This document shows, one piece after another, positions 37,168-55,361 of a stretch of 64,000 nt of DNA (the first letter of the stretch is position 1; the number at the start of each line of letters is the position of its first letter). A program made the translations under genes and the position numbers. The stretch comes from Flammeovirgaceae bacterium (GTDB lineage Bacteria > Bacteroidota > Bacteroidia > Cytophagales > Cyclobacteriaceae). Below the pieces are notes generated by a model, which was given only the letters and a program-made list of their open reading frames with translations, made no database searches and was not told where the DNA came from. Location of the stretch: the NCBI GenBank assembly GCA_015180985.1, contig CP054185.1, positions 3,285,225-3,349,224 on the forward strand, written 5' to 3'.

Positions 37168-38853
37168 ATGAACCTGTCCACTTTAGATGCGCTTGTTTTC
37201 ATTTCATACTGTGCTTTAATCCTGGGCATCGGCCTGTATGTTTCGCGCGACAAAAAGGGTCACCAAAAAAATGCTGAAGATTACTTTTTGGCCGGCAAAT
37301 CATTACCGTGGTGGGCCATAGGCGCTTCGCTGATTGCAGCCAATATTTCGGCCGAGCAGTTTATCGGCATGTCGGGTTCCGGGTTCGCTATCGGCCTGGC
37401 CATAGCCTCGTACGAATGGATGGCTGCTATTACTTTACTCATTGTAGGAAAATATTTCCTGCCGATTTTCATCAGCAAAGGGATCTACACCATTCCGGAG
37501 TTTGTGGAAAAACGCTTTAGCACCAACCTGAAAACAATACTGGCGGTTTTCTGGATTGCGTTGTTTGTCTTTGTAAACCTGACCTCAGTAATGTACCTGG
37601 GTGCCCGGGCGATGGACACCGTGATGGGAAGCGGTGACGGCAGCCTGATGGTATATGCTATTGTTGGCCTGGGCCTGTTTGCAGCCGCTTACTCACTTTA
37701 CGGGGGCCTTTCGGCCGTTGCATGGACGGATGTGGTACAGGTAGTTTTACTGATTGCTGGCGGATTGATCACTACCTTCCTCGCTCTGCAACATGTATCG
37801 CCTACAGGCAACATCTGGGATGGATTTGCGCACATTTATCAGGTGGTACCCGAAAAATTTTCGATGATACTATCCAAGGGAGAAATTATTACCCCCGATG
37901 GCAAAGATGCCTGGTGGGATTTACCCGGCCTGTCCGTGTTGCTTGGCGGAATGTGGGTGGCCAACATTTACTACTGGGGTTTTAACCAATACATCATTCA
38001 GCGGACATTAGCCGCCAAAAGCATTGATGAATCGCAGAAAGGAATTGTATTTGCTGCTTTCCTGAAACTTATTATTCCGCTGATCGTGGTTATTCCCGGC
38101 ATCATTGCATATGTTCTGAATGCTGATGCAGGCGGAACGTTAAATGCCGGAACCGTTGATCCCAGCTTCCTGACTAAAGAAGGCGCCATTGCCAATGACA
38201 ATGCCGCACCGTGGCTGATAAAAAGTTTTGTTCCGGTTGGGTTAAAGGGGCTGGTGCTGGCTGCACTGGCTGCCGCCATTGTTTCCTCGCTGGCATCCAT
38301 GCTCAATTCAACAGCCACCATTTTCACCATGGATATTTACCGGCCGTATGTCAATAAAAATGCGTCCGACAAACAAACCGTTCGGGTTGGCAGGATAACA
38401 GCAGCCGTAGCCCTTGTAATTGCCATGCTCATTGCCCCGATGTTGGGTAACCTGGGGCAGGCGTTTCAGTTTATTCAGGAATATACCGGAGTAGTCAGCC
38501 CGGGTATTCTGGCGGTATTTCTGGCCGGGTTATTCTTTAAAAAAGCTACCAACAACGGGGCCATTTGGGGCGTAGTGGCCTCCATACCCATTGCCTTGTA
38601 CTTTAAAGTGGCACCCAACGGGTGGTCAGACGCGGCTGTTTTTGTAAACATTCCTTTTCTGGATCAGATGTTTGCCACGGCCTTACTTTCACTTGCCATT
38701 ATTGTCGCGATAAGCCTGGCAGAAGGTAAGGGCAAAGCAAATGAAAAAGGGATTCACTTAACAGCCGGCCTGTTTAAAACCAGCCCGGCTTTTACCATTG
38801 GGGCAACCATTGTGCTGCTAATCTGCGCAGTATTGTACGCGGTTTTTTGGTAA
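37168..38853 (+). CDS. Sodium/sugar symporter, SGLT (SSS) family
   Basis: 561 residues, 13-14 transmembrane helices in the inner membrane. Signature parts: LSLPWWAIGASLIAANISAE-like region near residue 50 (GASLIAANISAEQFIGMSGS), YSLYGGLSAVAWTDVVQ, and YYWGFNQYIIQRTLAAK, which corresponds to the sugar-transporter signature in vSGLT. This subgroup couples Na+ to uptake of glucose, galactose or related sugars. It is convergent with the GH3 beta-glucosidase gene (10 bp between stops), so it likely takes up the glucose released by the neighbouring polysaccharide locus. That link is by position. Confidence 0.92.
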   Translation: MNLSTLDALVFISYCALILGIGLYVSRDKKGHQKNAEDYFLAGKSLPWWAIGASLIAANISAEQFIGMSGSGFAIGLAIASYEWMAAITLLIVGKYFLPIFISKGIYTIPEFVEKRFSTNLKTILAVFWIALFVFVNLTSVMYLGARAMDTVMGSGDGSLMVYAIVGLGLFAAAYSLYGGLSAVAWTDVVQVVLLIAGGLITTFLALQHVSPTGNIWDGFAHIYQVVPEKFSMILSKGEIITPDGKDAWWDLPGLSVLLGGMWVANIYYWGFNQYIIQRTLAAKSIDESQKGIVFAAFLKLIIPLIVVIPGIIAYVLNADAGGTLNAGTVDPSFLTKEGAIANDNAAPWLIKSFVPVGLKGLVLAALAAAIVSSLASMLNSTATIFTMDIYRPYVNKNASDKQTVRVGRITAAVALVIAMLIAPMLGNLGQAFQFIQEYTGVVSPGILAVFLAGLFFKKATNNGAIWGVVASIPIALYFKVAPNGWSDAAVFVNIPFLDQMFATALLSLAIIVAISLAEGKGKANEKGIHLTAGLFKTSPAFTIGATIVLLICAVLYAVFW

Positions 38854-38863
38854 AAAGTAAAAA

Positions 38864-41140
38864 CTACAATAGTTCAAATTCTGCCTGGAGCACATCGCGC
38901 GAATTACCGCCAACAAATACATGAAATGTACCGGGTTCGGCACCATAGGTTAAGTCGGCACGGTAAAATGAAAGCTCCTTTTCGGTAATAATAAAACTTA
39001 CCGTCTGCTTTTCGCCTGGCTTGAGTACAATTTTCTGAAAGCCCTTAAGCTCTTTTACGGGCCGGGTAACTGAACCAACCAAATCGCGGATATACAATTG
39101 CACAACTTCGGCACCTTCGCGTGTGCCGCTATTGGTTATTTCAACCGTTACCCGGATAGAATCCTGAGGCTTCATTTCTTTGCTGCTCAGAGTAAGATTA
39201 CTATAAGAGAATGTAGTATAGCTAAGACCATAGCCAAATGGATAAACAGGATCATTGGAAACATCCAGGTAATTAGACCGAAACTTCTGGAACCACTGTC
39301 CGTTAGCAAGCGGTCGGCCGGTATTTTTTTGCGCGTAATACATGGGTACTTGTCCGACATGCTGCGGAAACGTGGTGGTTAGTTTACCCGAGGGATTAAC
39401 ATCGCCAAACAACACATCAGCAATAGCATCGCCTGCTTCACTCCCGCCAAACCACACATTTACTATAGCCGGGATATTTTCATTCTCCCAGGTTAATGTT
39501 AAAGGTCTTCCGGTAAACAACACAAGCACAACCGGTTTACCGGTATTTACTAATGCTTTAAGTAAATCTCGCTGGGTTTGAGGGATATCGATGTTTACCC
39601 GGCTGGAGGATTCTCCGCTCATCTCGGCCGATTCGCCAACAGCAGCCACAATTACATCAGCCGATTGGGCAATCCGTACGGCCTCTGCCCGCATCATCTC
39701 AGGAGAACGTGGATCGCGGTTGAGTGACTTGCCAAACATGGTTGCCCGTTCTTCCACCAGTGGATCTTCATGCAGGTTTGAGCCTTTAGCATAGATAATT
39801 CTTGCTTTATCGCCAACTGCTTTTTGCAATCCTTGTAAAACAGATACCGATTCTGAGAACCGGGCAGCAACGCTCCAGGTTCCTGTCATATTGGTTGGCG
39901 CATTTGCCAACGGGCCCACCAATGCAATGGTTCCCTTCTTTTGCAGGGGTAATACGTTATTATTTTTCAGCAAAACAAAACTCTGGGCTGCCGCACTTCG
40001 TGCAAACTTTCTGTTATGCTCACTAAAAATTTCTGTTTTGGCCCGATTCTCATCGCAATACCGGTATGGGTCATCAAATAAACCAAGTTTAAACTTAGCA
40101 GTAAGAATTCGCTTGCAGGCAGCATTTATTTGCTGCTCGGTTATTTTCCCTTCCTTTAATGAATTGACCAATGTGGTAAGCAGGCCTTCACTGACCATAT
40201 CCATATCCAGACCGGCCGCCAGCGCTTTGGCTGATACCGACTGTAAATCGCCATAGCCATGATCGATCATCTCGCTCACACTGGTATAATCTGACACGAT
40301 AAACCCGTTAAAGTTCCATTGGCTTCGCAACACGTCCGTTAGCAGCCATTTATTAGCGGTAGCCGGAATGCCATCAACCTCATTGAATGATGTCATTACA
40401 CTTCCTGCTCCGGATTCAACAGCTGCCTTGTAAGGAATGAAGTACTCATTGTACATTCGCTGATGACTCATATCAACGGTATTGTAATCACGACCTGCTT
40501 CGGCCGCTCCATATAGTGCAAAATGTTTTACGCAAGCCAGAATAGTATTGTTTGCAGCCAGGTCATTGCCCTGATAGCCTCGTACCATGGCCTTGGCAAT
40601 TTCAGCACTCAAAAATGGATCTTCTCCGTTACCTTCGGATATTCTGCCCCAGCGTGGATCACGACAAAGGTCAACCATGGGCGAGAATGTCCAGTTTATG
40701 CCGTCTGCGCTTGCTTCCTGAGCTGCTATGCGCGCGGTTTGTTCTATTAGCGCCAGATCCCAACTGCAGCTCAAACCCAGTGGGATTGGAAAAACCGATT
40801 CATACCCATGAATTACGTCCATACCAAACAATAACGGGATCCCCAGGCGACTCTTCTCAACGGCTATCTGCTGCATTTCTCTGATTGCCTTTACTGATTT
40901 AATATTGAACAGCCCTCCTACCATTCCTCGTTCAATTTTTTTTGCAATTTCTGAGTTTGCAGCCTGGCCGGTTGTAAACTGCCCGGCCGATGGAAGATTA
41001 AGCTGGCCTATTTTTTCTTCCAGTGTCATGCGCTGCATCAGGGAGTCGACCTTCCGGTCAAGTTCAGTATGGGTTAATTTTTCCTTTGTCATACAGGAGA
41101 AACCAAGGAAAAAAACTGCGATCCGTAAAAGATTTTTCAT
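38864..41140 (-). CDS. bglX: GH3 beta-glucosidase, BglX-like, signal-bearing
   Basis: 758 residues, full length for BglX. A short signal with a relaxed lipobox (FLGFSC, Cys16) suggests periplasmic or lipid-anchored export. N-terminal barrel: FGMDVIHGYESVFPIPLGLS, DPRWGRISEGNGEDP, VKHFALYGAAEAGRDYN; nucleophile Asp284 in GFIVSDYTSV. The second domain carries the acid/base region GESAEMSGESSS, and a fibronectin-III-like domain ends the protein (GYGLSYTTFSYSNL ... GSVTRPVKELKGFQ). It removes terminal beta-glucose from oligosaccharides. In this locus it would finish hydrolysis of the oligosaccharides made by the two GH144-like enzymes; it starts 4 bp after them in the same run. Confidence 0.93.
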   Translation of the reverse strand: MKNLLRIAVFFLGFSCMTKEKLTHTELDRKVDSLMQRMTLEEKIGQLNLPSAGQFTTGQAANSEIAKKIERGMVGGLFNIKSVKAIREMQQIAVEKSRLGIPLLFGMDVIHGYESVFPIPLGLSCSWDLALIEQTARIAAQEASADGINWTFSPMVDLCRDPRWGRISEGNGEDPFLSAEIAKAMVRGYQGNDLAANNTILACVKHFALYGAAEAGRDYNTVDMSHQRMYNEYFIPYKAAVESGAGSVMTSFNEVDGIPATANKWLLTDVLRSQWNFNGFIVSDYTSVSEMIDHGYGDLQSVSAKALAAGLDMDMVSEGLLTTLVNSLKEGKITEQQINAACKRILTAKFKLGLFDDPYRYCDENRAKTEIFSEHNRKFARSAAAQSFVLLKNNNVLPLQKKGTIALVGPLANAPTNMTGTWSVAARFSESVSVLQGLQKAVGDKARIIYAKGSNLHEDPLVEERATMFGKSLNRDPRSPEMMRAEAVRIAQSADVIVAAVGESAEMSGESSSRVNIDIPQTQRDLLKALVNTGKPVVLVLFTGRPLTLTWENENIPAIVNVWFGGSEAGDAIADVLFGDVNPSGKLTTTFPQHVGQVPMYYAQKNTGRPLANGQWFQKFRSNYLDVSNDPVYPFGYGLSYTTFSYSNLTLSSKEMKPQDSIRVTVEITNSGTREGAEVVQLYIRDLVGSVTRPVKELKGFQKIVLKPGEKQTVSFIITEKELSFYRADLTYGAEPGTFHVFVGGNSRDVLQAEFELL

Positions 41141-41144
41141 AGTT

Positions 41145-42476
41145 TCATTGATGATAAGTGAACCCTAACTTTCGAAGTCCTTCCTGAACCTCGGGAGCTT
41201 CCATAAAAAGTTTCCAGAGAAGGCCCGTACGATAATTCTCAATCATTACCGGTATAGGGCCCTGATCAATAGCCAGGTAGTGTGGCAATAACCAGTTGTA
41301 TTGAAAGCTGAACGCATCGTAAGGGCCATAGGGCCCGATGAGAGAATCCCTTTCAGGAGCATACAGAAATTTCAAAAATTTCATGCTTTCTTCAGGGGTA
41401 TAAGGAAAGGACGATAACGCTGCTGTTGGTGAGATCACGCCCAGATCATTTGTAGGCTGATGTGCAGCATAGCCTATCATGGAGTAACTGGAGGTAAGAC
41501 CCCAGCACGACTCGCCATAGCCTTTAAAGTTTTTTGGATTTTCAACACAGTAGCGGTAATGAATTAGTGCATGGTTTCGGTTTACGTGCCAATAGTTGGC
41601 GTACTGATCAGTAAGTTTACGCGGGTCAAGCCCTAAATAAGAATAATGTGCCCAGAACAAAGGCCCTACCGGGTCATCGCTGTGCTCATAGTGATCAAGT
41701 ATAGTTGGTAAATCGTAAAATACACGAGCTGACTTTATTGCTCCATTTCGTGCCCAACCGTTGTGATAAACCTCCGGTTTTACCGGATGTGTGGGTGATG
41801 CAGCCGCCAGCACATACGCAATTAAACATTCGTTATACCCCCCGATAGGAAAATTCATCTCCCAGCCGTAGGTAGGAGACCAATGCCAATAGAGTACATT
41901 CTTTCCGTTGGTGTACCAGTTCCAATCTACCTGCCGCCAAAGCGTATCAATTTTATTAGCCAACTCTTTTTCTTCAGGATTCCCATTTTTAAAATATTCA
42001 CGCACAGTAAGCAGTCCCTGTACAAGGAATGCGGTTTCAACAATATCTCCACCATCATCTTTTTTACTGAATGGTTTTACTTTTCCTGTTTCACCAAATA
42101 GCCAGTGTGGCCATGCCCCATGGAATCGATCGGCCGTATCCAGGTAATTTACAATGTGTTTATAGAATGCCAGGGCTTCTGCCCGGCTAACAAAGCCGCG
42201 CTCGATGCCTACCAACACCGCCATTAAACCAAACCCCGTACCTCCGGTTGTTACAACATTTTTATCGTTTTGCGGATAGTTATTATCCATGTGCGTTCGT
42301 TCACGCGCCATCCGCGAAACAGGCTCGGCATTATCCCAGAAGTAATTGAAGGTCTGGCGTTGCACCAGTGTGAGCAGAGAATCTTCATCGGTCGAATTGA
42401 TACTTTCATAATCCTGCTTAACCGAACAGTTCAGTACCAGTACAGAAAAAATAATTAAGTACGTTAATTGACGCAT
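41145..42476 (-). CDS. Glycoamylase-fold (GH144-like) lipoprotein
   Basis: 443 residues with lipoprotein signal (VLVLNC, Cys17). Single catalytic domain of the Pfam glycoamylase type (alpha/alpha barrel), which includes the GH144 endo-beta-1,2-glucanases: FNYFWDNAEPVSRMARER, TTGGTGFGLMAVLVGIERGF, DDGGDIVETAFLVQGLLT, WHWSPTYGWEMNFPIGGYNE, TNDLGVISPTAALSSFPYTP, and the C-terminal AIDQGPIPVMIENYRTGLLW. It is clearly a paralogue of the next upstream gene. Expected role is endo-cleavage of a beta-glucan near the cell surface or in the periplasm. GH144 versus a related activity cannot be settled without alignment. Confidence 0.85.
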   Translation of the reverse strand: MRQLTYLIIFSVLVLNCSVKQDYESINSTDEDSLLTLVQRQTFNYFWDNAEPVSRMARERTHMDNNYPQNDKNVVTTGGTGFGLMAVLVGIERGFVSRAEALAFYKHIVNYLDTADRFHGAWPHWLFGETGKVKPFSKKDDGGDIVETAFLVQGLLTVREYFKNGNPEEKELANKIDTLWRQVDWNWYTNGKNVLYWHWSPTYGWEMNFPIGGYNECLIAYVLAAASPTHPVKPEVYHNGWARNGAIKSARVFYDLPTILDHYEHSDDPVGPLFWAHYSYLGLDPRKLTDQYANYWHVNRNHALIHYRYCVENPKNFKGYGESCWGLTSSYSMIGYAAHQPTNDLGVISPTAALSSFPYTPEESMKFLKFLYAPERDSLIGPYGPYDAFSFQYNWLLPHYLAIDQGPIPVMIENYRTGLLWKLFMEAPEVQEGLRKLGFTYHQ

Positions 42477-42485
42477 TTGGTAGCT

Positions 42486-44474
42486 TTAATAAGTAAATCC
42501 CAGAGTTGACAATCCGGCCTGCACTTCGGGAGCGGACATGAACAGATCCCACAGTAACCCGGTCCGGTAGTTTTCAATCATGATTACAATCGGTCCCTGG
42601 TCAATGGCCAGAAAAGAATTTGCCGTCCAGCCCTCGGTAATGTTAAACGCATCATAAAAACCGTAAGCACCCCATAACCTGTCGCCCAGTGTGTAATAAA
42701 AAAACTTAAGTGCTTTCATTGATTCCACCGGTGTAAACGGAAATGAAGACAAGGCAGCCGTTGGGGTTATCACTCCTAAATCATTTGTAGGTGAATGTGC
42801 TGCATAGCCCAGGTGGTTATCACTGGCCGTGAGCCCCCAGCATTCTTCGCTATAGCCTACAAAATTTTTCGGGTTACGCACGCAATAGGCATGGTTGATA
42901 CGTGAGTGATTTTGATTTTGCAAAAGATAATCAGCGCAATAAAAGTCGCTTAATCCGTGCGGATCGATACCTAAAAATGAATAATGCGCAAAGAAGAGCG
43001 GTCCGCCATATGCCGGGCCAAGCGGTAATATAATCCCCTCATAGGCATTACCATTCTTCATTCCTCCGTTACTTGCCCAACCATTGTCATACACAATTTT
43101 TGGAATACCGTGGGTTGGTGATGAGGCAGCCAATACATAAATAACCAGGCCTTCATTCCAACCTTTAACCTGCATATTCATTATCCATTGTTTATCAGGC
43201 GACCAATGCCAGTAAAGGGTGTTCTGATTACTACGCCTGTACCAGTCCCATTCAACACTGTGCCATAGAACATTGATTCGGTTTATTAAGGCGTTCTCTT
43301 CAGGAACAGCGTTGTTAAGATATTGTCTGAAAGTAAGTAGCCCCTGAATCAGAAAAGCTGTTTCCACCAGGTCGCCTCCGTTATCGTTCGTACTAAAAGG
43401 AATGACCTTACCCGTATTGCCGTCAATCCAATGTGACCAGGCTCCGTGAAACCGGTCGGCTGATTCAAGAAATGTGAGGATTTTATCCATTCGCGCCAAT
43501 CCTTCAGCACGGGTAATAAATCCGCGTTCAATACCTACAATAATTGCCATAATGCCGAACCCGGAACCGCCACTGGTTACCAGGTTACCACTGGTATTAC
43601 GTTCGCGCGCCATACCGCTGGCCGGATGGGCAAAGTCCCAGAAATACTTAAAAGTTTGTTGTTGCACTAAGGTGAGCAACTCCTCATCGGTTATTATCGG
43701 GAATTTGGGTGTTGGATCAACCTCCGTATAAAAGTTTTTGGTAAACTGAGTAATCGTCTCCTGGTTTACACCGGTCAACTCAGGTGACACATAAACGCGA
43801 TAGCGCTGCAGGTGGCTTAAAGGCAGCAGCGGGGTAATGGTAACTTTCCGGTTTTCGTCTGTGGCTGCGTATGTTGATTGAACCGAACCTGCCGGACCGG
43901 TAATCCGAAGGTAAGTAGAATTAATTTTAGCCGGATCCAGTGAATGAGAAAATGTAATTTCGACAGTTGTTGATCGTGGTATATCAATTACCGGTGAGGT
44001 GTATAACGATTCAACACCGTTGAATTTTAGTGAAACAACGCTAAGAATGCCGGCCTTTGTTTTAAATAATACGGTTATGCCGGCAAAGGTTTCACCTTGT
44101 TTACCACGCAGATCCGTGGTTATGGATAATTCATAAAATTGATTAGGCTCAAGGGCCGCGGCAGGCGTTAACGTAAGGCGCCTGTCATTATCAAAAGCGA
44201 TAAAGTTAAATGGCATTTCATCCCCTCCCTGAACTTTCAAGGTTATTGCGTCATCCACCGTACTTAACAGCAGGCTGGCTGAAAAAACAACAGTAATTGG
44301 CTGTTCAATTGGGATATTATTGTTGTCAGCCGGATTAGTAAGGTTAAGGTTGCTCTCGCCAATGGTTACCTGAAGAAGTTGCAAAGCCGATGTGCCGGAG
44401 CCATCATTATCATTACAGGACAGCACCAACGATAACAGCAGTAGTACAGGAATAATTTTTTTGAAAGATTGCAT
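42486..44474 (-). CDS. Glycoamylase-fold (GH144-like) lipoprotein with N-terminal Ig-like domains
   Basis: 662 residues with lipoprotein signal (LSLVLSC, Cys20). Residues 30-145 and 150-255 are two bacterial Ig-like (Big_5/SbsA-type) domains (IEQPITVVFSASLLLSTVDD, IDIPRSTTVEITFSHSLDPA). From about residue 260 comes the same alpha/alpha catalytic domain as the downstream paralogue, with matching FKYFWDFAHPASGMARER, NDNGGDLVETAFLIQGLLTF and TNDLGVITPTAALSSFPFTP. The Ig domains probably hold the enzyme away from the outer membrane, so this copy is the likely cell-surface endo-enzyme. Starts 70 bp after the LamG lipoprotein gene, across a strong hairpin. Confidence 0.85.
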   Translation of the reverse strand: MQSFKKIIPVLLLLSLVLSCNDNDGSGTSALQLLQVTIGESNLNLTNPADNNNIPIEQPITVVFSASLLLSTVDDAITLKVQGGDEMPFNFIAFDNDRRLTLTPAAALEPNQFYELSITTDLRGKQGETFAGITVLFKTKAGILSVVSLKFNGVESLYTSPVIDIPRSTTVEITFSHSLDPAKINSTYLRITGPAGSVQSTYAATDENRKVTITPLLPLSHLQRYRVYVSPELTGVNQETITQFTKNFYTEVDPTPKFPIITDEELLTLVQQQTFKYFWDFAHPASGMARERNTSGNLVTSGGSGFGIMAIIVGIERGFITRAEGLARMDKILTFLESADRFHGAWSHWIDGNTGKVIPFSTNDNGGDLVETAFLIQGLLTFRQYLNNAVPEENALINRINVLWHSVEWDWYRRSNQNTLYWHWSPDKQWIMNMQVKGWNEGLVIYVLAASSPTHGIPKIVYDNGWASNGGMKNGNAYEGIILPLGPAYGGPLFFAHYSFLGIDPHGLSDFYCADYLLQNQNHSRINHAYCVRNPKNFVGYSEECWGLTASDNHLGYAAHSPTNDLGVITPTAALSSFPFTPVESMKALKFFYYTLGDRLWGAYGFYDAFNITEGWTANSFLAIDQGPIVIMIENYRTGLLWDLFMSAPEVQAGLSTLGFTY

Positions 44475-44543: not shown

Positions 44544-45791
44544 TTAAGGCTTTCCGGAGTTGTACATGGCTGTAATTTCAGCCTGTGTAAGCACTTTATG
44601 ATAAATAATCAAATCATCCATAAGGCCATGGAAGTGATTCGCACCCGGGTTATCATAATTACCCCAAGGTTCACCATCCCATAAGGTTCCTCCACGCGAA
44701 TGAACAAACCCAAGTGCCAGTTCATTAAGAACGTCAGGTACGTCACCCCGGTAACTTAACCCGGTTGCAAACCTCGGATTAGCACCATCGGGCCACAAAT
44801 CGAAATCCTGTTCTTTAATTTTCTCACCGTTCAGGTAAACAATACCCTGGCGTGTTGTGGCATTATACACAAATACGTAATGCGCCCAATTATCTTTTAT
44901 AACCACATTCATTCCTCCGGTTGGTGTAAAATCTTTAGAGAAGACCCAACCTTGCCAACCCAGGTTTCCTGTTCCATCGGCCCAAAGGTCTTCACTGAAT
45001 TTACCGGCACCACTTGGATTATCATGTGCATACGAAGCGGCCAGTTTAAAGGCATTATAGTCGCCAAAAATTTCCATTTGGAAACCATAAAATGCGCCAA
45101 GGCCAAACACGAACTGGCCCTTGCCAAGCGAAGAATTAGGTTTAACCCATACGCTAAGTGCCCAACTGCCATTGTTCATCAACTGGTCACCATTAGCATA
45201 TTCAACAATAGTGGTTGTGCCATTAAAGCTGGCTGCTTTTCCGGCATCGGCTTTCCGGCCGTCAACAAACGTTAAGTCAACCGTACCGCCCGTTTTTGGT
45301 GCACGACCGCCAATAATATCCACTGCATTATCTTCAAACGTCCAGTGTGCGAAAGCACCCGGTACGGCAAATGTTCCTTCGGAAGTAAAGTTCCGTTCGA
45401 TGGCTGAAGTAAGTGTTTTTCCTTCCGCGCTTTTGAGGCCGGCACCAAAGGTCAGTATAAATAACGTTCCGGTACTGAAGTCGGCATTGGGGTTAATTGT
45501 TACTTCATTACCATCAACTGTAATGGTGGCATCAAAATTCTGGCTATCGAACTGACGTACCAGTGTTATAGCAGAGGTTGTGGTTTCATCTACCGGCACA
45601 TTAAATGTAGCGACAATAGACGCACCTACAGGCACACCGGTAGCACTCGTAGCCCCATTCAAATCAATGTCGCCAGCGGTGAGGCTGACCAAGGCTAATG
45701 CAGGCGGCTCATCATCATTACACCCAACAAACACTGTGGCCATCAATGCCGCAACCAGCAGTGTACTCAACATCCATTTTACATTTTTCAT
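44544..45791 (-). CDS. Surface lipoprotein with Ig-like and LamG domains (probable glycan-binding protein of the locus)
   Basis: 415 residues with lipoprotein signal (ATVFVGC, Cys24). An Ig-like domain (VPVGASIVATFNVPVDETTT; LKSAEGKTLTSAIERNF) is followed by a concanavalin-like LamG jelly roll: VPGAFAHWTFEDNAVDIIGG, KAASFNGTTTIVEY, SWALSVWVKPNSSLGKGQFV, WAHYVFVYNATTRQGIVYLN, and the classic end FHGLMDDLIIYHKVLTQAEI. It occupies the place after susD where SusE/SusF-type surface glycan-binding proteins lie, and I infer that role. No catalytic motif is seen. Confidence 0.8.
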   Translation of the reverse strand: MKNVKWMLSTLLVAALMATVFVGCNDDEPPALALVSLTAGDIDLNGATSATGVPVGASIVATFNVPVDETTTSAITLVRQFDSQNFDATITVDGNEVTINPNADFSTGTLFILTFGAGLKSAEGKTLTSAIERNFTSEGTFAVPGAFAHWTFEDNAVDIIGGRAPKTGGTVDLTFVDGRKADAGKAASFNGTTTIVEYANGDQLMNNGSWALSVWVKPNSSLGKGQFVFGLGAFYGFQMEIFGDYNAFKLAASYAHDNPSGAGKFSEDLWADGTGNLGWQGWVFSKDFTPTGGMNVVIKDNWAHYVFVYNATTRQGIVYLNGEKIKEQDFDLWPDGANPRFATGLSYRGDVPDVLNELALGFVHSRGGTLWDGEPWGNYDNPGANHFHGLMDDLIIYHKVLTQAEITAMYNSGKP

Positions 45792-47362: not shown

Positions 47363-50300
47363 TTAGAAAGTTAGATTTAAACCCAATGAATAAATTCTTG
47401 GAATTGGATAGGTGGCAATATCAATTCCGTTAAGCACAGGATTACCGCTAACTATTTCGGGTGTATATCCCGTAAAACTGCTTAGGGTAAAAAGGTTAGT
47501 AACCCGGGCAAATGCTCGGACTGATTTCATGCCTGCTTTCCGGACGAGGTGTTCGGGCACTGAGTAACCAATTGAAAAGTTCCGTAACCGAAAGAATGAG
47601 CCATTATAGATGTACCGTGAAGAGGGCTCATAATTTACCCCTCCATTACTGGGCCGGGGTTCAGAATTTGTAGTGCCTTCACCATCCCAAAAATTAAAGT
47701 ACCGTTGTTCAAAATTGTAGGGATCGGGTCGGACCGTTTCTTTGCCGTTAAATATTTTGTTTCCACTCTGCCCCTGAAAATCAATAGTAACATCAAACCT
47801 TTTGAATTCTGCCGATAGGTTAACACCATACAACAGCGTAGGAATTGGAGAGCCCAAATTGGTGCGATCAGCCGAATTTAACACGCCATTGTTATCACTA
47901 TCAGCAAACTTCAGGTCACCAACTTCGGTATTGCTCAAATGTGGGTAGGCATCTAACTCGGCCTGGCTTTGAAACACTCCGATAACCTGGTATCCATAGA
48001 AAGACCCAATTGGTACGCCCGGTACTGTACGGGTTACCTGTCGGCCATTAAATAGCCCTACAAGTTGCTCATCGGTACCTCCGGTTCCACTTACTTTCAG
48101 TGTTTCATTATGTATGGTTGTTATGTTGGCATTTATGCTGTACCGCAAATCTTTAAATTCACTTTTCCACCCAACTGCGGCCTCAATTCCCTTATTCAAC
48201 ACCTCACCGGCATTAAATGTAATCAGTGCTCCGTCACCATTTCCATAATATCCAGGAACAGGCAAGTCAATAAGTATATCACTGGTGTTGCGATTATAAT
48301 AATCAATTTCAGCCGTCAGTTTATCATCCATAAACCCAAGTTCAATACCAATATCCAATTGCTCGGTGTTTTCCCACTTTAAATTCGGATTACCGGCAAC
48401 ACCATATGTTGCACCAGGATACTGTTCATCGTTGCCGAATAGCGCATTGACTCCGTTCAAAACGAGTGAATACTGGCGCAGGTAGTTAATTTTTTCATTG
48501 CCGATGATGCCCCAACTTGCGCGAAGTTTCAGATTAGAAAATAACTTATTAGCAGCAAGAAAATTCTCATTTATCGCATTCCACCCTATTGCAAAGGAAG
48601 GGAAATTTGCAAAGCGGTTATCATCTGTAAATTTTGACGATCCATCACGCCTGAAAGTAACCGTAAACAAGTACCGGTTATCGTAGGTATAATTGGCCCG
48701 AAATAAGTATGAAATCATTGAGAAATTAAAAGCCGCATTAACATCATTCCGGGCTGAATTAGGACTGACCAGGTTAGGGAAAATATTAACATACCAAAAA
48801 TCTTCTCCGGGCCTAATCAGGTTCTCAGCGCCTAAAAAAACTGTTTCCGATGAAGACTCCTGCAGGGTATAACCCGCCAAGGCATTAAGCCGGTGAACGC
48901 CAATATCTTTATTGTATGTCAGGGTATTCTCCCACAACCAGTCGGTTCTATCAGAATAACCTTTACCTAAATCATCGGTGGCATTTTGTTGTTGTGGGTT
49001 TACAAAGAAAACCGGTGTGTAGCTGGTTGACTTGTTGTACTCTAAATCGGCTCCAAAACTTGACCTAAAAGTGAAACCATTTAAAAAATCAATCTCTGTA
49101 TAAAGATTATTTACACTGCGTATTCCCCTATTAAAGCTATTGGTATATTTAATATCAGCCAACACATTTCCAACCCCTGGAACGGGGGAGAATGAACCGT
49201 CTGGCTGATAGGGTTCAATGGTTGGCCAGGCTCGGTATACTACAAATACTGCGTTGCCATTTGTATTTTGTTGATCATAGGGCGTGAAGGACAGGTTGCT
49301 TCCAAGCCGTACATTATCAGAAAGTCTCAGCGTATTGTTAAATTTCAAAGACAATCGCTGGTAATCCGATTTCGTAATGATCCCTTCCTGATTAAAATAC
49401 CCCACTGATGTATAGTATTGAAACTTATCCGAACCCCCCGAAAATGAAAGTTGGTAATTTTGAATAGGAGCTGTCTGAAAAATCAAGTCTTGCCAATCCG
49501 TATTCGGCACGGCATCAACATTGTTATATGTTCCGGGATTAATTTTGTTACGAACAATTGCGTACTCCCTGCCGCTCAGTAAATCTATTTTCTTAGGTAA
49601 TTCCTGAATACTGTACTCAGCCGTTACATTAATGGCAGGATAATTCCCTGCAGCTGAATCGCCTTTTTTTGTAGTAACGATAATAACACCGTTTGCACCC
49701 CGTGCCCCATAAATTGCTGTAGCTGATGCATCTTTCAGCACCTCCATGGAGGCAATGTCAGCCGCATTTAAAAAGTCGATATTTTGAAGTATTACACCAT
49801 CCACCACATAAATTGGTGATGCATCATTAAAGGTACCGATACCGCGGATTCGAACATAGGTGCTTGCACCCGGTGCACCGGAAAGATTAGCAACCTGCAG
49901 GCCGGGCACCTTGCCCTGCAACGATTGCATGGGGTTTATTGAAGGAACCGAGGTTAATTGATTTCCTCGTATTGATGAAACTGAACCGGTTAAATCTGAT
50001 TTGCGAACAGTTCCATATCCCACAACCACAACTTCCTCAAGGGCAAGGGCTTCGGGCTCCATACTAATATTTAATGTTTCGCGCCCATCAACATTTACCG
50101 TTTGAGTTTTATAGCCAACAAATGTGAAAACAAGGGTATTTTCTCCTGGTCCCAGGTCGACTGAGAAATTTCCGTTGGTATCGGAAGCAGTACCTTTTGT
50201 TGTACCCTGAACGATGACGTTAACACCGGGAAGACCCTGGCCATCATCAGCACTGATTACCCGGCCCCGAACTACACTGGTTTGGGCAAAAACATCCGCA

Positions 50301-50365
50301 CCGCCAATAAGTAGTATGGCTAAAAACTGTAATACAACAATCCCTCTAAGCATAGAAACTTTCAT
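47363..50365 (-). CDS. susC: SusC/RagA-family TonB-dependent outer-membrane transporter
   Basis: 1000 residues. Signal peptide (LRGIVVLQFLAILLIGGADVFAQ), then the carboxypeptidase-D-like regulatory domain (RGRVISADDGQGLPGVNVIV ... FVGYKTQTVNV), the plug with EEVVVVGYGTVRKSDLTGSV and YVVDGVILQNIDFLNAADI, and a long 22-strand barrel ending in YSLGLNLTF with a terminal aromatic. It imports oligosaccharides using TonB-ExbBD energy. No extra signalling domain of the ECF-sigma transducer type is seen at the N-terminus, so the regulator is likely the membrane sensor gene upstream. ATG at 50365 gives the best signal peptide. Confidence 0.97.
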   Translation of the reverse strand: MKVSMLRGIVVLQFLAILLIGGADVFAQTSVVRGRVISADDGQGLPGVNVIVQGTTKGTASDTNGNFSVDLGPGENTLVFTFVGYKTQTVNVDGRETLNISMEPEALALEEVVVVGYGTVRKSDLTGSVSSIRGNQLTSVPSINPMQSLQGKVPGLQVANLSGAPGASTYVRIRGIGTFNDASPIYVVDGVILQNIDFLNAADIASMEVLKDASATAIYGARGANGVIIVTTKKGDSAAGNYPAINVTAEYSIQELPKKIDLLSGREYAIVRNKINPGTYNNVDAVPNTDWQDLIFQTAPIQNYQLSFSGGSDKFQYYTSVGYFNQEGIITKSDYQRLSLKFNNTLRLSDNVRLGSNLSFTPYDQQNTNGNAVFVVYRAWPTIEPYQPDGSFSPVPGVGNVLADIKYTNSFNRGIRSVNNLYTEIDFLNGFTFRSSFGADLEYNKSTSYTPVFFVNPQQQNATDDLGKGYSDRTDWLWENTLTYNKDIGVHRLNALAGYTLQESSSETVFLGAENLIRPGEDFWYVNIFPNLVSPNSARNDVNAAFNFSMISYLFRANYTYDNRYLFTVTFRRDGSSKFTDDNRFANFPSFAIGWNAINENFLAANKLFSNLKLRASWGIIGNEKINYLRQYSLVLNGVNALFGNDEQYPGATYGVAGNPNLKWENTEQLDIGIELGFMDDKLTAEIDYYNRNTSDILIDLPVPGYYGNGDGALITFNAGEVLNKGIEAAVGWKSEFKDLRYSINANITTIHNETLKVSGTGGTDEQLVGLFNGRQVTRTVPGVPIGSFYGYQVIGVFQSQAELDAYPHLSNTEVGDLKFADSDNNGVLNSADRTNLGSPIPTLLYGVNLSAEFKRFDVTIDFQGQSGNKIFNGKETVRPDPYNFEQRYFNFWDGEGTTNSEPRPSNGGVNYEPSSRYIYNGSFFRLRNFSIGYSVPEHLVRKAGMKSVRAFARVTNLFTLSSFTGYTPEIVSGNPVLNGIDIATYPIPRIYSLGLNLTF

Positions 50366-50624
50366 GTTTGAACCAGGCCCAAGCATTAACCAAGCAAATA
50401 ATTATGCTCCCTTATCCTTTTTTAGCAATAGAAAGTTTGAAAGTTCAAAGGTTTTATAAAATATTTTTTTGAAAAAATGACTGTTTGGAGGACTGTAAAA
50501 CTGAATTACATGAAGAGCTTTTTCCCCCGAAAAAAACATTGATTTTAAATAAAAAAAGCCCGTTATTGAATAATTAAAAACTAACTTTAATTCAAAAAAA
50601 ACATTGAACTGAAAACGATTGAGG
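50366..50624 (-). promoter_or_regulatory. AT-rich upstream region of susC with repeated sites
   Basis: 259 bp, very AT-rich and without an open frame worth naming. A palindrome TTTGAA-AG-TTCAAA lies at 50436-50449, about 70 bp before the susC ATG. Two direct copies of AAAAAAACATTGA begin at 50530 and near 50595, 65 bp apart. No TAnnTTTG promoter was found on the minus strand. These are candidates for sites bound by the PUL regulator. Confidence 0.4.
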
Positions 50625-52541
50625 TTAACCGGTTTTAGCAATGGTTTTCGGTTTTGGCTTGCTGCTCTTACTCCTTCTTTTTGAATCTTCCAGAATGACT
50701 TCTTCCCAACGTGAAACAAGTGGCCTTTTATGGTTTTTTTCAAGTTCCAGAATGCGGTTATTGACTTTTGTTTTAAATGCCCAGACAGTATTCGTGCCCA
50801 AATCAAGCATGCTTGCCAGGAACTCCAGGGTGCTGTCGCGTTTGCCTGTTACGGTCAGGTATGCAATGTAAAATGCCTTTTCAATCGGGAATTTGATTCC
50901 CTGGAAAATCGTAAAGGCAGTTATTGATTCATTGTAGCCACATCGCGAACACCTCCGCGCAAACTTAGCCGTTCCGGCAAAGTACTTTTCATTACTACAC
51001 CTCTTACATCGGAATCCTTTTTCCCATTTAAGGTTTTCTAAAAAGCGGTAGCAGGCCAGTTTATCGGGGTAAAGGGTTTTAAACTGCGTATAATCCATTG
51101 TTTTTTCCTGAAGGCGTTCGTTTAAAACTTCTTTAATGCTGCTTTTAAGTTTCCAGTTGTCCAAATCCAGCATTGAGTTTATCCTGTTAAGTTTCTCTGC
51201 CTGTTGCAACAGCTTCTGATTTGATTCCGCCAACTCTTTGTTTTTAGCGTCCAACTCTACTGTACGTGCCAGCACCTTTTCTTCAAGCTCCCGGTTCACT
51301 TTATCTTTTAATTGCATGTTCAATTCATGCTGATGAATTATTCTTCGCAAAGCCCGGTCGCGCATATCCTTCAGAATTCTAATCCTGTCGCCCAGGGCAA
51401 ACGTCAGAAACAACATTTCCAACACAAAGGCAAAGTGCAAACTGTAATGCGATGCAATGGTAAAGGGCAATACATTAAAGTAAACCAGCATACGAAGGAA
51501 AAATCCGGTAAAGAGAATCCCATAGGCAATAACAAAAAAGCGGGCAGGTTTATACCCGTTACGCCATACGGTAATGCCCGTGTAAAAAATCAATGAAAGC
51601 GGTAGAATGTCTAAATTCCGATAGGTTAAAAACTGAGGGAAGAAGAAAAGCTCGGTTACAAAAATAACGGAGCGTATAATCATAACTAACTTTATTACCT
51701 TATCCAGCTTGGGTGCATTTGCACGCGTGCTTAAAAATTTACGGGTAAAAATCAGTGCCCAAATAATTAATGAATACAGAAAAATACCCACCGCATAATT
51801 ATTCCAATAAGGATGTTCGGGCCATAGGTACTGAAAACCAATTCCATCCAGGCTCATGGCATAACCTGCTACACTAAGTATATAACAGATATAATAGATG
51901 TTTTTGATTTCACGAATACCCAGGTAAACAAGGAAGTTATAGAGGGCAATAATCAGTATCATGCCATAAAACGTTCCAAATAAAAAGTATTCGTTTAGGG
52001 CATAATAAACAAACCGGTTTACTGAGCGTAAGGCAATACGCAAATCGGCAAATTCATGCGATTGAACTCTGAAATAAAATACCATCAGCGTATCTCGCTG
52101 AGTATCTATCTGGATTTCAAAATTCTTATGATGGAAAAATCGCTTTGAAAACGGCTGTTGATCACCCAGATGAACAATACGGTATGCGCCACCGGTCATT
52201 GGAACAAATGCCTCGATATGATCGATGGTCTGATCGTAAAATTCTAACAGCCAGGTCCTTTTTGAATCGGATGAAGTACGTATCGGCAAACGAATCCAAT
52301 AGGCTGCATTTACCTGGAAATCAATATTCTGATAGTTGGTGTGGGTTTGAAATCGGTTGGAATATTCCGGTGAAGAGATTTCGATGAAACTTAGTTTGTT
52401 GGTTGGATCAATGAAATATGAAAGTTCATAGGGCATGAAATTGCGCTCTTCAACATCATCGGTGATTTCAAAAGGCGTTTGAGCTAACCCGGGTAATGCA
52501 AAAATGACGTAAACAACTAAAAATTGTATTCTTGGCTGCAT
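50625..52541 (-). CDS. 7TM-DISM membrane sensor fused to an IS1595-type zinc ribbon and helix-turn-helix
   Basis: 638 residues, one unbroken frame. Signal peptide 1-20 (VVYVIFALPGLAQ); extracellular DISMED2-like beta domain about 35-175; seven transmembrane helices about 184-385 of the 7TM-DISM type; coiled coil about 386-480; then a C-terminal domain about 487-600. That domain starts YPDKLACYRFLENLKWEKGF, has a zinc ribbon with Cys512, 515, 531 and 534 (CKRC ... CSRC), then ITAFTIFQGIKFPIEKAFYI and a helix-turn-helix (LEFLASMLDLGTNTVWAFKTK). This layout is that of the zinc-ribbon plus HTH of IS1595/ISXO2 transposases, but no DDE nuclease follows; the tail is basic (SKRRSKSSKPKPK). I infer a membrane-bound DNA-binding regulator of the PUL immediately downstream. 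Start ATG 52541 chosen for the signal peptide; 52589 is possible. Confidence 0.85.
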   Translation of the reverse strand: MQPRIQFLVVYVIFALPGLAQTPFEITDDVEERNFMPYELSYFIDPTNKLSFIEISSPEYSNRFQTHTNYQNIDFQVNAAYWIRLPIRTSSDSKRTWLLEFYDQTIDHIEAFVPMTGGAYRIVHLGDQQPFSKRFFHHKNFEIQIDTQRDTLMVFYFRVQSHEFADLRIALRSVNRFVYYALNEYFLFGTFYGMILIIALYNFLVYLGIREIKNIYYICYILSVAGYAMSLDGIGFQYLWPEHPYWNNYAVGIFLYSLIIWALIFTRKFLSTRANAPKLDKVIKLVMIIRSVIFVTELFFFPQFLTYRNLDILPLSLIFYTGITVWRNGYKPARFFVIAYGILFTGFFLRMLVYFNVLPFTIASHYSLHFAFVLEMLFLTFALGDRIRILKDMRDRALRRIIHQHELNMQLKDKVNRELEEKVLARTVELDAKNKELAESNQKLLQQAEKLNRINSMLDLDNWKLKSSIKEVLNERLQEKTMDYTQFKTLYPDKLACYRFLENLKWEKGFRCKRCSNEKYFAGTAKFARRCSRCGYNESITAFTIFQGIKFPIEKAFYIAYLTVTGKRDSTLEFLASMLDLGTNTVWAFKTKVNNRILELEKNHKRPLVSRWEEVILEDSKRRSKSSKPKPKTIAKTG

Positions 52542-52624
52542 ATCCTTCCTGCTGAATTTCAAACTAACAAGAAATTCAGCCTGGAACAAGGGTACGGTGC
52601 AAACAAAGGACCCTGAATGCTAAC

Positions 52625-53006: not shown

Positions 53007-53627
53007 ATGAAAGAAACCCACGATTATCAACACGACATCGCCTCCATCCGGGAAGTCATGGAACGCTCCTCCAAATTTCTTTCGCTTAGCGGCCTGTCGG
53101 GTGTGATGGCCGGTGTGTACGCCCTGGCCGGGGCCGTGGTGGCCTACCACCTCCTTTACTATCCGCAGGCACCGCTCGGATCACCTCCGGTAACGGCTAC
53201 CCAGGCAGTAATCCTCCGCCTGCTAACACTGGCAAGCGCAGTACTTGTCCTTTCAATCGGGACAGCCATTGCAATGAGTTATCGCAAAGCTAAACGGGCC
53301 GGCAGCAGCATCTGGAATAAAACCAGCCGGCAGTTGCTGGCATTGCTGGGTATGCCCCTGGTAACCGGAGGCCTGCTCATCCTTACCTTTATTATCAATA
53401 AGTATTTCGCCCTTATTGCACCGGCCTGCCTTGTCTTTTACGGTCTTGCTTTGGTAAACGCCAGTTCCATAACAGTTAAGGAAATCGGCTACCTGGGATT
53501 TTCACAACTTTTACTGGGTCTTGTTGCTGCCCTGCTGCCGGGTTACGGACTTATTTTTTGGGGTGTTGGCTTTGGCGTACTCCACATTATATATGGAGCA
53601 GTAATGCATTACCGATACGATTTGTGA
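53007..53627 (+). CDS. Six-helix integral membrane protein of unknown function
   Basis: 206 residues: a short charged N-terminus with an amphipathic helix (HDYQHDIASIREVMERSSKF), then about six transmembrane helices (LSGLSGVMAGVYALAGAVVA, ILRLLTLASAVLVLSIGTAI, LLALLGMPLVTGGLLILTFI, ALIAPACLVFYGLALVNASS, YLGFSQLLLGLVAALLPGYG, FGVLHIIYGAVMHY). I do not recognise the family beyond its regular association with the next gene. The stop overlaps the next start as GTGA, so the membrane protein and the winged-helix regulator are translationally coupled, and the membrane protein may sense something for it. Confidence 0.75.
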   Translation: MKETHDYQHDIASIREVMERSSKFLSLSGLSGVMAGVYALAGAVVAYHLLYYPQAPLGSPPVTATQAVILRLLTLASAVLVLSIGTAIAMSYRKAKRAGSSIWNKTSRQLLALLGMPLVTGGLLILTFIINKYFALIAPACLVFYGLALVNASSITVKEIGYLGFSQLLLGLVAALLPGYGLIFWGVGFGVLHIIYGAVMHYRYDL

Positions 53628-53923
53628 AAAATCCGTTTGAACAACTGGACCGGATCCTGGAGCACCGCGTGCGCCTGCAAATTATGTCGGTGCTGGTGGC
53701 CAACGATTCGTACGATTTCAATTCGCTGAAAGAGGTACTAAACGTTACCGATGGCAACCTGGCTACTAACCTGAAAGCACTGGAAAAAGAAAAATACCTC
53801 GTGGTTTCAAAATCGTTTGTAAACCGTAAGCCAAACACCAAATACAAAGCCACTGAAAAGGGACGAGCGGCTTTTAAGAAACACCTTGATGCCCTGGAAG
53901 AACTGATAAAAAACCAACACTGA
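53624..53923 (+). CDS. Winged-helix transcription regulator (HTH_27 / MarR-like)
   Basis: 99 residues from the GTG at 53624, which overlaps the previous stop by 4 bases; an earlier ATG in this frame lies inside the upstream gene and is not used. The winged helix is seen as HRVRLQIMSVLVANDSYDFN, LKEVLNVTDGNLATNLKALE (recognition helix) and the wing KEKYLVVSKSFVNRKPNTKY, ending in KGRAAFKKHLDALEELIK. This matches the small PadR/MarR-like regulators that precede creD in Bacteroidota. Likely controls its own operon. Confidence 0.9.
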   Translation: MKNPFEQLDRILEHRVRLQIMSVLVANDSYDFNSLKEVLNVTDGNLATNLKALEKEKYLVVSKSFVNRKPNTKYKATEKGRAAFKKHLDALEELIKNQH

Positions 53924-53945
53924 TAATTTCAATCAATAACTTTCT

Positions 53946-55361
53946 ATGGAAAACCTGCCATCACCCACCTTGCTCGACCGGTTTAACCGCTGGCTCAGTG
54001 AATCCATTACCATAAAACTGCTATCCATTGGCTTCCTGGTGCTCATCCTGCTGATACCCGCCAGCTGGATTGAGCACCTGATGGAGGAGCGGCAACAACG
54101 GGCTGAATCAGTCATTACCGAAGTTTCCGAAAAATGGTCGGGCAGCCAAACGCTGTCCGGGCCGGTGCTAATCATTCCGTACAAATACCGCGAAACAATT
54201 AAACTTGAAAAAGGTCAGGTTGAAGTAAAAGAAACCATCCGCAAAGCTTTTTTCCTGCCGGAAACGCTGCAGATAACCGGGGTCGTTAATCCTGAAAAAC
54301 TGCACCGCGGAATTTTCGATGCCGTTGTGTATGAAGCATCCCTTACTATGAACGCCTCGTTCAGCAAGCCGGATTTTAAGCGACTGGATATTGCCGAAGA
54401 CAGGGTGCTGTGGAGTGAAGCCCACCTGGTAGTTGCCGTGAGCGACCTGCGCGGCATCAGTAAAAATCCACCCGTGGTATCACTCAGCGAACATGCACTT
54501 ACTTCTGAACCTGCCCAACATATCGGCATTGCCGTAGGCCAACCAAGGCCGCCTGCACACGCTGTGGTTTCTAATGCACTTTCTCTTCCAAATCAATCAA
54601 CAACCGGATTCACAGTGGATGCCAACTGGAACAGCGAAGCCGATTTTAACTCCGAAACTAAAATTTCATTCACGCTGAAAGGCAGTAGTGCACTTAGTTT
54701 TGTGCCATCCGGAAAAACAACCTCCGTAAACCTATCGGGGCCCTGGCCTGATCCCAGTTTTGATGGCGACTTCCTGCCTTCCACGCGCGAGGTAACCGAA
54801 ACAGGCTTTACGGCAACCTGGCAGATTCTTCATTTCAACAGGCCCATCGCACAAAGCTGGAAAGACCGCGAGGATGAACTCTCCGGTTCAGCATTCGGCT
54901 TAAAACTGCTGATGCCGGTTGACCAATACCAAAAAAGCATACGCACCGCTAAATACGGAATATTAGTTATACTACTCACTTTTGTTTCGTTGGTACTTGT
55001 AGAAATTACCCAACGCATCCGAATACACCCCTTTCAATATATCCTGATTGGCGCTGCACTGATTATTTATTATACCCTGTTGCTCAGTTTCTCCGAACAG
55101 GTTGGTTTTGGCATGGCTTACTGGATAAGTACAGTGGCCACGGTGGTTTTGTTAGCTGCCTATTCCACCACCTTCTTTACCATGCGAAGACTAACCGTAT
55201 TGTTTGCGCTTTTGCTAGCGGCTTTTTACACCTTCATCTTTGCCATCATCCTGCAGCAGGATTATTCGCTGCTTATCGGCAGTATCGGCTTATTCCTGGT
55301 GCTGGCGGCATTGATGTATTTCAGCCGTAAGGTAAACTGGTACAAAGAAAAATTGTCGTAA
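53946..55361 (+). CDS. creD: Cell envelope integrity protein CreD
   Basis: 471 residues. An N-terminal transmembrane helix (SITIKLLSIGFLVLILLIPA) is followed by the CreD region (IEHLMEERQQRAESVITEVS, WSGSQTLSGPVLIIPY), a large periplasmic beta domain, and five to six C-terminal helices (KYGILVILLTFVSLVLVEIT, LIGAALIIYYTLLLSFSEQV, LLIGSIGLFLVLAALMYFSR). In E. coli creD is induced by the CreBC system and relates to envelope stress and colicin E2 tolerance; here it is instead in an operon with a winged-helix regulator and a membrane protein. The mechanism is not known. Confidence 0.92.
   Translation: MENLPSPTLLDRFNRWLSESITIKLLSIGFLVLILLIPASWIEHLMEERQQRAESVITEVSEKWSGSQTLSGPVLIIPYKYRETIKLEKGQVEVKETIRKAFFLPETLQITGVVNPEKLHRGIFDAVVYEASLTMNASFSKPDFKRLDIAEDRVLWSEAHLVVAVSDLRGISKNPPVVSLSEHALTSEPAQHIGIAVGQPRPPAHAVVSNALSLPNQSTTGFTVDANWNSEADFNSETKISFTLKGSSALSFVPSGKTTSVNLSGPWPDPSFDGDFLPSTREVTETGFTATWQILHFNRPIAQSWKDREDELSGSAFGLKLLMPVDQYQKSIRTAKYGILVILLTFVSLVLVEITQRIRIHPFQYILIGAALIIYYTLLLSFSEQVGFGMAYWISTVATVVLLAAYSTTFFTMRRLTVLFALLLAAFYTFIFAIILQQDYSLLIGSIGLFLVLAALMYFSRKVNWYKEKLS

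Follow-up and report, generated by a model that had tools for sequence, protein, structure and literature searches.

A predicted membrane-bound regulator combining a 7TMR-DISM sensor with a transposase-derived DNA-binding domain, next to a putative beta-1,2-glucan operon of a Flammeovirgaceae bacterium

Receptors of the 7TMR-DISM type are known with a kinase or a cyclase as their output, and membrane regulators of the CadC/ToxR type consist of an N-terminal winged helix and one membrane helix, with no seven-transmembrane (7TM) domain and no known transposase ancestry. It has been reported that one 7TMR-DISM receptor carries a GGDEF output (PMC5342196) and that the membrane regulators of the ChiS family include 7TMR-DISM proteins with a ChiS-type DNA-binding domain, the latter according to the legend of Fig. 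5 (PMC8092284). As common modes of control for the enzyme genes of polysaccharide loci, a 2024 review names hybrid two-component systems, pairs of extracytoplasmic function (ECF) sigma and anti-sigma factors, and catabolite repression (PMC10766802). The system considered here lies in a stretch of 64,000 nucleotides (hereafter the window) from a Flammeovirgaceae bacterium (assembly GCA_015180985.1, contig CP054185.1, positions 3,285,225 to 3,349,224 of the forward strand), in which one gene joins a 7TMR-DISM sensor to the zinc ribbon and helix-turn-helix (HTH) of an IS1595-type transposase and stands directly before a susC/susD operon. With a probability of roughly three in four, this fusion is a membrane-bound one-component regulator that directly controls the adjacent beta-1,2-glucan operon, positively or negatively, through two direct repeats before susC; direct control is judged likely because the evidence for an operator adds to that from structure and setting. 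No published description of the fusion was found in searches of openly licensed PMC papers. The gene and the parts of its product are as follows.

50625..52541, minus strand: fusion regulator gene, 638 aa, with ATG at 52541; an alternative TTG at 52589 would give 654 aa
52029..52424, minus strand: 7TMR-DISMED2 ectodomain, residues 40-171 (Pfam, E 1e-26), with a fold like that of the RetS periplasmic domain
51384..51992, minus strand: 7TMR-DISM_7TM seven-helix membrane domain, residues 184-386 (Pfam, E 2.6e-48; helices in the model)
51105..51383, minus strand: coiled-coil linker, residues 387-479, within an unbroken model helix at 367-479, where the predicted local distance difference test score (pLDDT) is below 50 at 454-468
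50934..51056, minus strand: IS1595-type zinc ribbon, residues 496-536, with Cys512, Cys515, Cys531 and Cys534 (PF12760, 28.2 bits against a cut-off of 25.4)
50736..50828, minus strand: HTH, residues 572-602, with Gly582 at a position that is often Arg in relatives

A preliminary description of the window, made from its letters alone, had read one continuous frame through DISMED2, the 7TM domain, a coiled coil, a zinc ribbon and an HTH, and this architecture is borne out by the 638-aa minus-strand frame, opposite which the plus strand holds many stops, by Pfam and by an AlphaFold2 model. The ectodomain matches PF07696 (E 1.1e-26) and resembles the periplasmic domain of RetS (3jyb) both by profile (E 1.8e-7) and by Foldseek (E 7.3e-5); PF07695 is covered end to end (profile positions 1-205 of 205), and behind it the coiled coil with the zinc ribbon and HTH takes the place of the cytoplasmic output module, so that both the extracellular domain and the output module of a 7TMR-DISM receptor are present. 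The profile checks proposed earlier for PF12760 and PF07695 both gave scores above cut-off, and NCBIfam has no fitting model, its lone match (15.3 bits against a cut-off of 400) being noise. The model, built on 27 sequences with a mean pLDDT of 82.5, begins with a beta-rich ectodomain, continues through membrane helices and a long helix, and ends in a zinc-ribbon hairpin and an HTH; the C-terminal 125 residues modelled alone again gave the expected zinc ribbon and HTH with a pLDDT of 89.6. Sensor, membrane part and DNA-binding domain thus stand in a single chain without a phosphorelay domain, as in a membrane-bound one-component regulator: Pfam gave no match to kinase, receiver or AraC-type domains in the fusion protein, and none to sigma-70 or FecR-like anti-sigma domains in the fusion, the three divergent upstream proteins and the four downstream proteins scanned.

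The DDE nuclease had been described as absent, and indeed Pfam gave no match to the DDE domain (PF12762) in the fusion up to E 1, with the transposase L225 as positive control at E 1.1e-24. Its loss would suit a transposase-derived domain that has given up DNA binding and now mediates protein contacts or senses zinc, as would the lack of an established resemblance between the repeats and IS1595 ends. This explanation is very improbable: the four cysteines, found at the residues first named, are invariant in the 100 fusions that exceed 560 aa (101 loci in all), the majority-residue frequency of the output domain (0.56) matches that of the membrane domain (0.53), and the operator-like repeats and their covariation with the HTH speak for DNA binding. 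Chance or a frame error as the source of the fusion was ruled out because orthologues of 66-86% identity are present in 16 of the 16 congeners searched, the match in G006 being split over two overlapping frames. In the 3.38-Mb genome of the bacterium itself, the fusion gene is the sole PF07695 match and the sole PF12760 match above cut-off, three weaker PF12760 matches all lying below it; there is one copy of the fusion, so the multiple copies that would signal a mobile IS1595 transposase are absent from this genome. A recent or accidental fusion, in which an IS1595 element landed behind a receptor gene, is refuted: the 16 congeners searched share the architecture, which recurs in other families and beyond the order, the fusions form a single clade against the transposases (support 98/84), and the same genome has no further zinc-ribbon match above cut-off.

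The proposed operator consists of two repeats in the gap between the fusion gene and susC.

50586..50607, minus strand: repeat copy 1, 22 bp, proposed operator half (repeat models)
50521..50542, minus strand: repeat copy 2, 22 bp, in the same orientation, 65 bp beyond copy 1

The gap contains two copies of TCAATGTTTTTTT, 65 bp apart, which are the only ones in the 64 kb, where none is expected. From the end of repeat copy 2, it is 137 bp to the end of the annotated susC start codon. Among the fusion loci compared, 48 have susC as the next gene; four near-duplicate gaps were left out, and the remaining 44 gaps were used for unconstrained expectation maximization (EM) and for a spacing scan. At a width of 22, EM reached a log-likelihood of 231, compared with 59-79 in six simulated sets, with 60 restarts in the real data, 25 in the simulated controls and six simulations per width. 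Two or more matches occur in 24 of the 44 gaps, 23 of which contain a pair spaced 64-66 bp, L164 differing with a spacing of 55. When direct-repeat spacings were scanned without a model, the combined z was 7.6 at 65 bp, compared with a maximum of 2.3 in the 250 bp that precede each of the fusion genes; in the 31 gaps outside the genus orthologues, the peaks are at 66 and 65 bp (z 4.8 and 3.6), followed by 67, 59 and 64 bp (3.0, 3.0 and 2.9).

The repeats are also largely specific to this position. A model trained on the genus gaps found 5 pairs in the 84 other loci (1.26 Mb), and a model trained on the other gaps found 9 in the 17 genus loci (0.27 Mb). Each of these 14 pairs, three of which are in near-duplicate loci (L117, L068, L071), lies directly behind the fusion gene, and there are none elsewhere in the 1.5 Mb on both strands. 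For tests on 34 loci, eight loci of the CGTAT type described below, which have another spacing, and two with gaps longer than 500 bp (L153, L164) were removed from the 44; here and in the cross-trained scans, "after the gene" was taken as within 430 bp of the gene end on the strand of the gene. When training was limited to loci sharing less than 60% identity over the final 260 residues, the top pair in the entire locus fell just after the gene in 31 of 34 (1.6% expected), the misses being L066, L073 and L134. In the 3.38-Mb genome, the gap between fusion and susC is the only place with the exact paired pattern; a looser pattern occurs 10 times in 8 of the 17 genus genomes, eight times just after the gene and twice elsewhere, and not at all in the reversed arrangement.

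In relatives, residue 582 of the HTH is Arg, Gly or Ser, and this position is associated with the sequence of the repeats. GCG occurs in a repeat in 13 of 19 loci with Arg582 and in none of 15 with Gly or Ser (Fisher p 3.9e-5, uncorrected for kinship), and in 11 of 13 genus loci the model trained on the others picked a pair in the same stretch. All 11 loci with a CGTAT core carry Arg582. Position 582 of the recognition helix is predicted to set part of the specificity.

The setting of the fusion is given by the genes of the window that follow it.

47363..50386, minus strand: susC-like TonB-dependent transporter (Pfam), starting 238 bp past the fusion stop codon
45841..47352, minus strand: susD-like glycan-binding lipoprotein (Pfam)
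44544..45791, minus strand: protein with Big_5 and Laminin_G_3 domains (Pfam)
42486..44474, minus strand: endo-beta-1,2-glucanase-like PF10091 enzyme with Big_5 domains (5gzh, E 1.5e-154)
41145..42476, minus strand: second endo-beta-1,2-glucanase-like PF10091 enzyme (5gzh, E 2.8e-184)
38864..41140, minus strand: beta-glucosidase of glycoside hydrolase (GH) family 3 (PDB matches to GH3 beta-glucosidases)
37168..38853, plus strand: sodium:solute symporter at the far end of the locus (PF00474)

The earlier placement of the fusion directly upstream of SusCD is right, because susC starts on the same strand 238 bp past the fusion stop, and with susC and susD adjoining glycoside hydrolases, the locus is a polysaccharide utilization locus. 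The operon most likely handles beta-1,2-glucan, because its two PF10091 enzymes, which we take to belong to family GH144, are related to the solved endo-beta-1,2-glucanase 5gzh. For the product of 42486..44474, the best PDB match is 4gl3, a "putative glucoamylase" (E 3.3e-163), ahead of 5gzh, and for the product of 41145..42476, the "uncharacterized protein" 5gzk (E 2.7e-184) is level with 5gzh. The symporter is found in 9 of 16 congener loci (in L071 partial and in the other orientation), several of the loci ending early. Upstream of the fusion, a divergent set at 53007-55361 encodes an unnamed protein, an HTH_34 regulator and CreD, and stands in the same place in L064, L069 and L073.

The distribution of the fusion was examined in two samples of genomes. 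Of 390 genomes drawn from the order, with three candidates scored per genome, 230 match the full-length profile at 1e-60, fusions and non-fused receptors being mixed in this count; among the matches listed, to about 1e-159, all reach profile position 597 or beyond of 618 and are therefore taken as fusions. Of 395 genomes drawn from the class, 16 match at full length at 1e-110, nine inside the order (the own genome included) and seven outside. Within the genus, 15 of the 16 loci with room (17 loci in all) have susC directly behind the fusion. Of the 83 other fusion loci with room, 33 likewise have susC next and 46 have it no further than three same-strand genes away, compared with 0 of 20 non-fused 7TMR-DISM controls (Fisher p 1.4e-6), one of which has susC elsewhere in its locus; the neighbour tally suggested in the preliminary description thus came out in favour of the link to susC. 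These 84 other loci comprise 80 outside the genus and four paralogues in congeners (L040, L042-L044), some genomes giving two or three loci; they were hand-picked from score-ranked lists, so nearer relatives are over-represented, and the 20 controls were also hand-picked, with somewhat shorter loci. In each of two genomes, G285 and G317, two divergent fusion genes stand head to head with no susC adjoining (L118, L119). The enzymes in fusion loci include PF10091, GH30, GH3, GH10, GH43 and GH81 proteins and a sulfatase, some upstream or on the opposite strand. The fusion design is common to many genomes and, because these enzymes vary, is not tied to one glycan.

Several results weigh against direct control through the repeats. 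Of the 83 other fusion loci with room, 37 have no susC within three same-strand genes; 24 loci with another same-strand gene next give no clear 65-bp peak (z 2.7 at 77 bp and 2.4 at 66 bp); and with a model trained on all 34 loci, the 53 loci in which susC is not the next gene had their best pair after the gene in only five cases. Each cross-trained model recovers only part of the other set's sites. L060 (G001), the genus locus with room that has no susC next, has lost susCD and the second repeat but kept the regulator, one GH144-type gene and GH3; behind its first repeat lies a remnant of a further gene of GH144 type. In the 34 modelled gaps there is no full match to the Bacteroidota promoter consensus, with eight of nine positions in L061, L070, L075 and L078. 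The covariation is weaker than its p value, because all but one of the 15 loci without Arg, L132, belong to a single kin group (13 genus loci and L110) and because the pairs of genus and other loci come from two different models, of which just one favours GCG.

At window positions 50608-50624 and at the same place in the other genus gaps, 15 genus gaps having been inspected by eye, AAACGTTT/AATCGATT-like sites stand just before the first repeat; they are reminiscent of LacI-family operators. The paired repeats could thus serve another regulator, for example an unlinked one of LacI type, with the fusion acting elsewhere, and the scarcity of pairs behind fusions that lack an adjoining susC points the same way. 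In seven of 16 congener loci (L061, L066, L067, L068, L069, L071, L074), however, SusC is no more than 31-39% identical to that of the window while the regulator and the GH144-type genes are kept, and the pair was placed in five of the five of these loci that were modelled (L068 and L071 being left out as near-duplicates), so it persists where SusC was replaced and the fusion stayed. An operator of an unlinked regulator is also at odds with the absence of such a spacing peak upstream of the fusion gene, with the near confinement of the pair to the gap between fusion and susC (8 of the 10 pattern matches in the 17 genus genomes), and with the covariation of the repeats with the fusion's own HTH, subject to the caveats of kinship and placement just given; it is regarded as quite improbable.

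Under direct control by the fusion, beta-1,2-glucan sugars would enter the periplasm by way of SusCD and be recognized by the DISMED2 ectodomain, and the signal would pass through the seven-helix domain and the coiled coil, which, to judge from the family and the model, would also dimerize the protein. The zinc ribbon and HTH of each protomer would then grip one of the two 22-bp direct repeats about 65 bp apart, as their location, specificity and covariation suggest, and expression of the susC operon would change, more probably being turned on than off. The preliminary description had proposed a one-component regulator that senses a glycan and acts upstream of susC; the paired repeats lend independent support to such a role, in which DNA binding and the effect on expression are deduced from sequence, and the sensing part is refined to a putative periplasmic beta-1,2-gluco-oligosaccharide ligand, the operon of the window pointing to beta-1,2-glucan. 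The spacing of about 65 bp corresponds to roughly six turns of DNA and would place both copies on the same face.

The same spacing would permit a loop, and the sign of control is unreadable from sequence, so that the fusion might instead bind the repeats and repress the operon, or tether the locus to the membrane, until the ligand releases it. This version overlaps with the probability given above, where either sign is counted, and is considered unlikely; a promoter-like element past the second repeat, an activator-like place, argues weakly against it in the CGTAT-type loci. In 11 loci (L040, L042-L044, L113, L142, L143, L145, L146, L169, L171), CGTAT cores lie 76-80 or 90-91 bp apart, and 10 of them have the element TTG-N18-21-TAnnTTTG, five in full and five with eight of nine positions, 41 or 54-57 bp past the second repeat (distances taken by hand, without a shuffle control). 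The spacings of 65, 78 and 91 bp differ by 13 bp, which does not match whole turns of DNA, and those of 78 and 91 bp do not themselves fit whole turns.

The 120 residues of the output domain are found again at the N-terminus of IS1595 transposases that possess a DDE domain, as in L225 (PF12760 and PF12762). In a midpoint-rooted tree of 122 rows and few columns (128), from which 13 of the 104 7TM rows were left out as presumed close relatives, the branch with support 98/84 has on one side 91 7TM fusions, four Reg_prop/Y_Y_Y fusions and the short protein L182, and on the other all 19 transposases, six G747 proteins and L183. On comparison of these sequences, the output domain of the fusions is shown to descend from the DNA-binding half of an IS1595 transposase, and because the fusions form one clade apart from the IS1595 transposases, the domain was probably captured once and later joined to more than one sensor; the Reg_prop/Y_Y_Y rows require two changes on the tree. 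The latter proteins (L254-L257) have 997-1068 aa with the zinc ribbon and HTH at the end; Reg_prop, Y_Y_Y and zinc ribbon were assigned by Pfam in L254, L255 and L256 (in L254 with the zinc ribbon below cut-off, at 18.2 bits) and the whole arrangement by eye in L257, and Pfam gave no kinase, receiver or AraC match in L254-L256. L255 directly precedes susC and susD; L254, L256 and L257 do not.

L182 (137 aa) and L183 (185 aa) carry the zinc ribbon without a DDE or sensor match and are possible stand-alone regulators or transposon remnants. Genome G747 has 14 dispersed full-length IS1595-like genes (L190-L203) of 294-332 aa, one cut by a contig end, and the six of its proteins in the tree form one clade (99/96). 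That these multi-copy proteins are true transposases is doubted, acidic residues of the DDE motifs appearing, by eye, to be missing in the alignment with L055, and they may be a domesticated family of DNA-binding proteins.

The repeats may descend from transposon ends. When 10 IS1595 elements were scored with the repeat model in one reading direction, 18 of 19 ends fell below zero and one was at 0.0. In both directions, with the left end of L228 not located, outward ends beat the element interior in 18 of 19 cases, meaning that fewer than 0.5 of inner stretches score as high (median 0.26), yet only two of the 19 ends pass 0.05, both of them in L227; the ends are mutually related, and A+T content was uncontrolled. 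The outward ends of L227 (G181) score well, at 6.3, best of all stretches compared, and 3.7, in the top 1.5%, unlike those of the other nine elements. An early look at the ends of L189 beside the repeats was suggestive.

Taken more broadly, and held with less assurance than the role of the single protein though still favoured, a transposase DNA-binding domain captured once would be the output module of a class of Bacteroidota membrane regulators, exchanged among two or more kinds of sensor (7TMR-DISM and Reg_prop/Y_Y_Y) and controlling loci for different glycans directly through two direct repeats of fixed spacing, without phosphorelay or sigma factor, the repeats perhaps coming from transposon ends. 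If this is true, a further class of regulator, present in many genomes of the order, could control the susCD loci that a fusion adjoins, and a domain of a bacterial transposon would be documented as a receptor output. The proposal is directly testable, with an operator predicted to the base and an inducer class suggested, namely beta-1,2-glucan sugars.

Compared with known systems, the fusion shares periplasmic sensing and a place beside susCD with hybrid two-component systems, whose Reg_prop/Y_Y_Y sensor type is also that of the four output-domain relatives (three by Pfam, L257 by eye); unlike these systems, the window protein and L254-L256 have no kinase, receiver or AraC match. It has the DISMED2 and 7TM sensor of RetS and other 7TMR-DISM receptors but a DNA-binding output instead of a kinase or cyclase, and it has the zinc ribbon, HTH and output-domain layout of IS1595/ISXO2 transposases but lacks the DDE domain, is fused to a receptor and occurs once in its genome. 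In its proposed role it is like the CadC/ToxR type in that a membrane protein acts on DNA without a phosphorelay. The nearest precedent found is the 7TMR-DISM protein with a ChiS-type DNA-binding domain: in the ChiS family, a sensor and a C-terminal DNA-binding domain likewise share one polypeptide, with a 7TMR-DISM version among them, whereas the DNA-binding domain is an HTH variant reported from proteobacterial genomes and not a transposase zinc ribbon with HTH, and the architectures listed there also include kinase and receiver domains (PMC8092284). The membrane-bound one-component regulator is thus a known type, and what is unusual here is the transposase origin of its DNA-binding part together with its wide spread.

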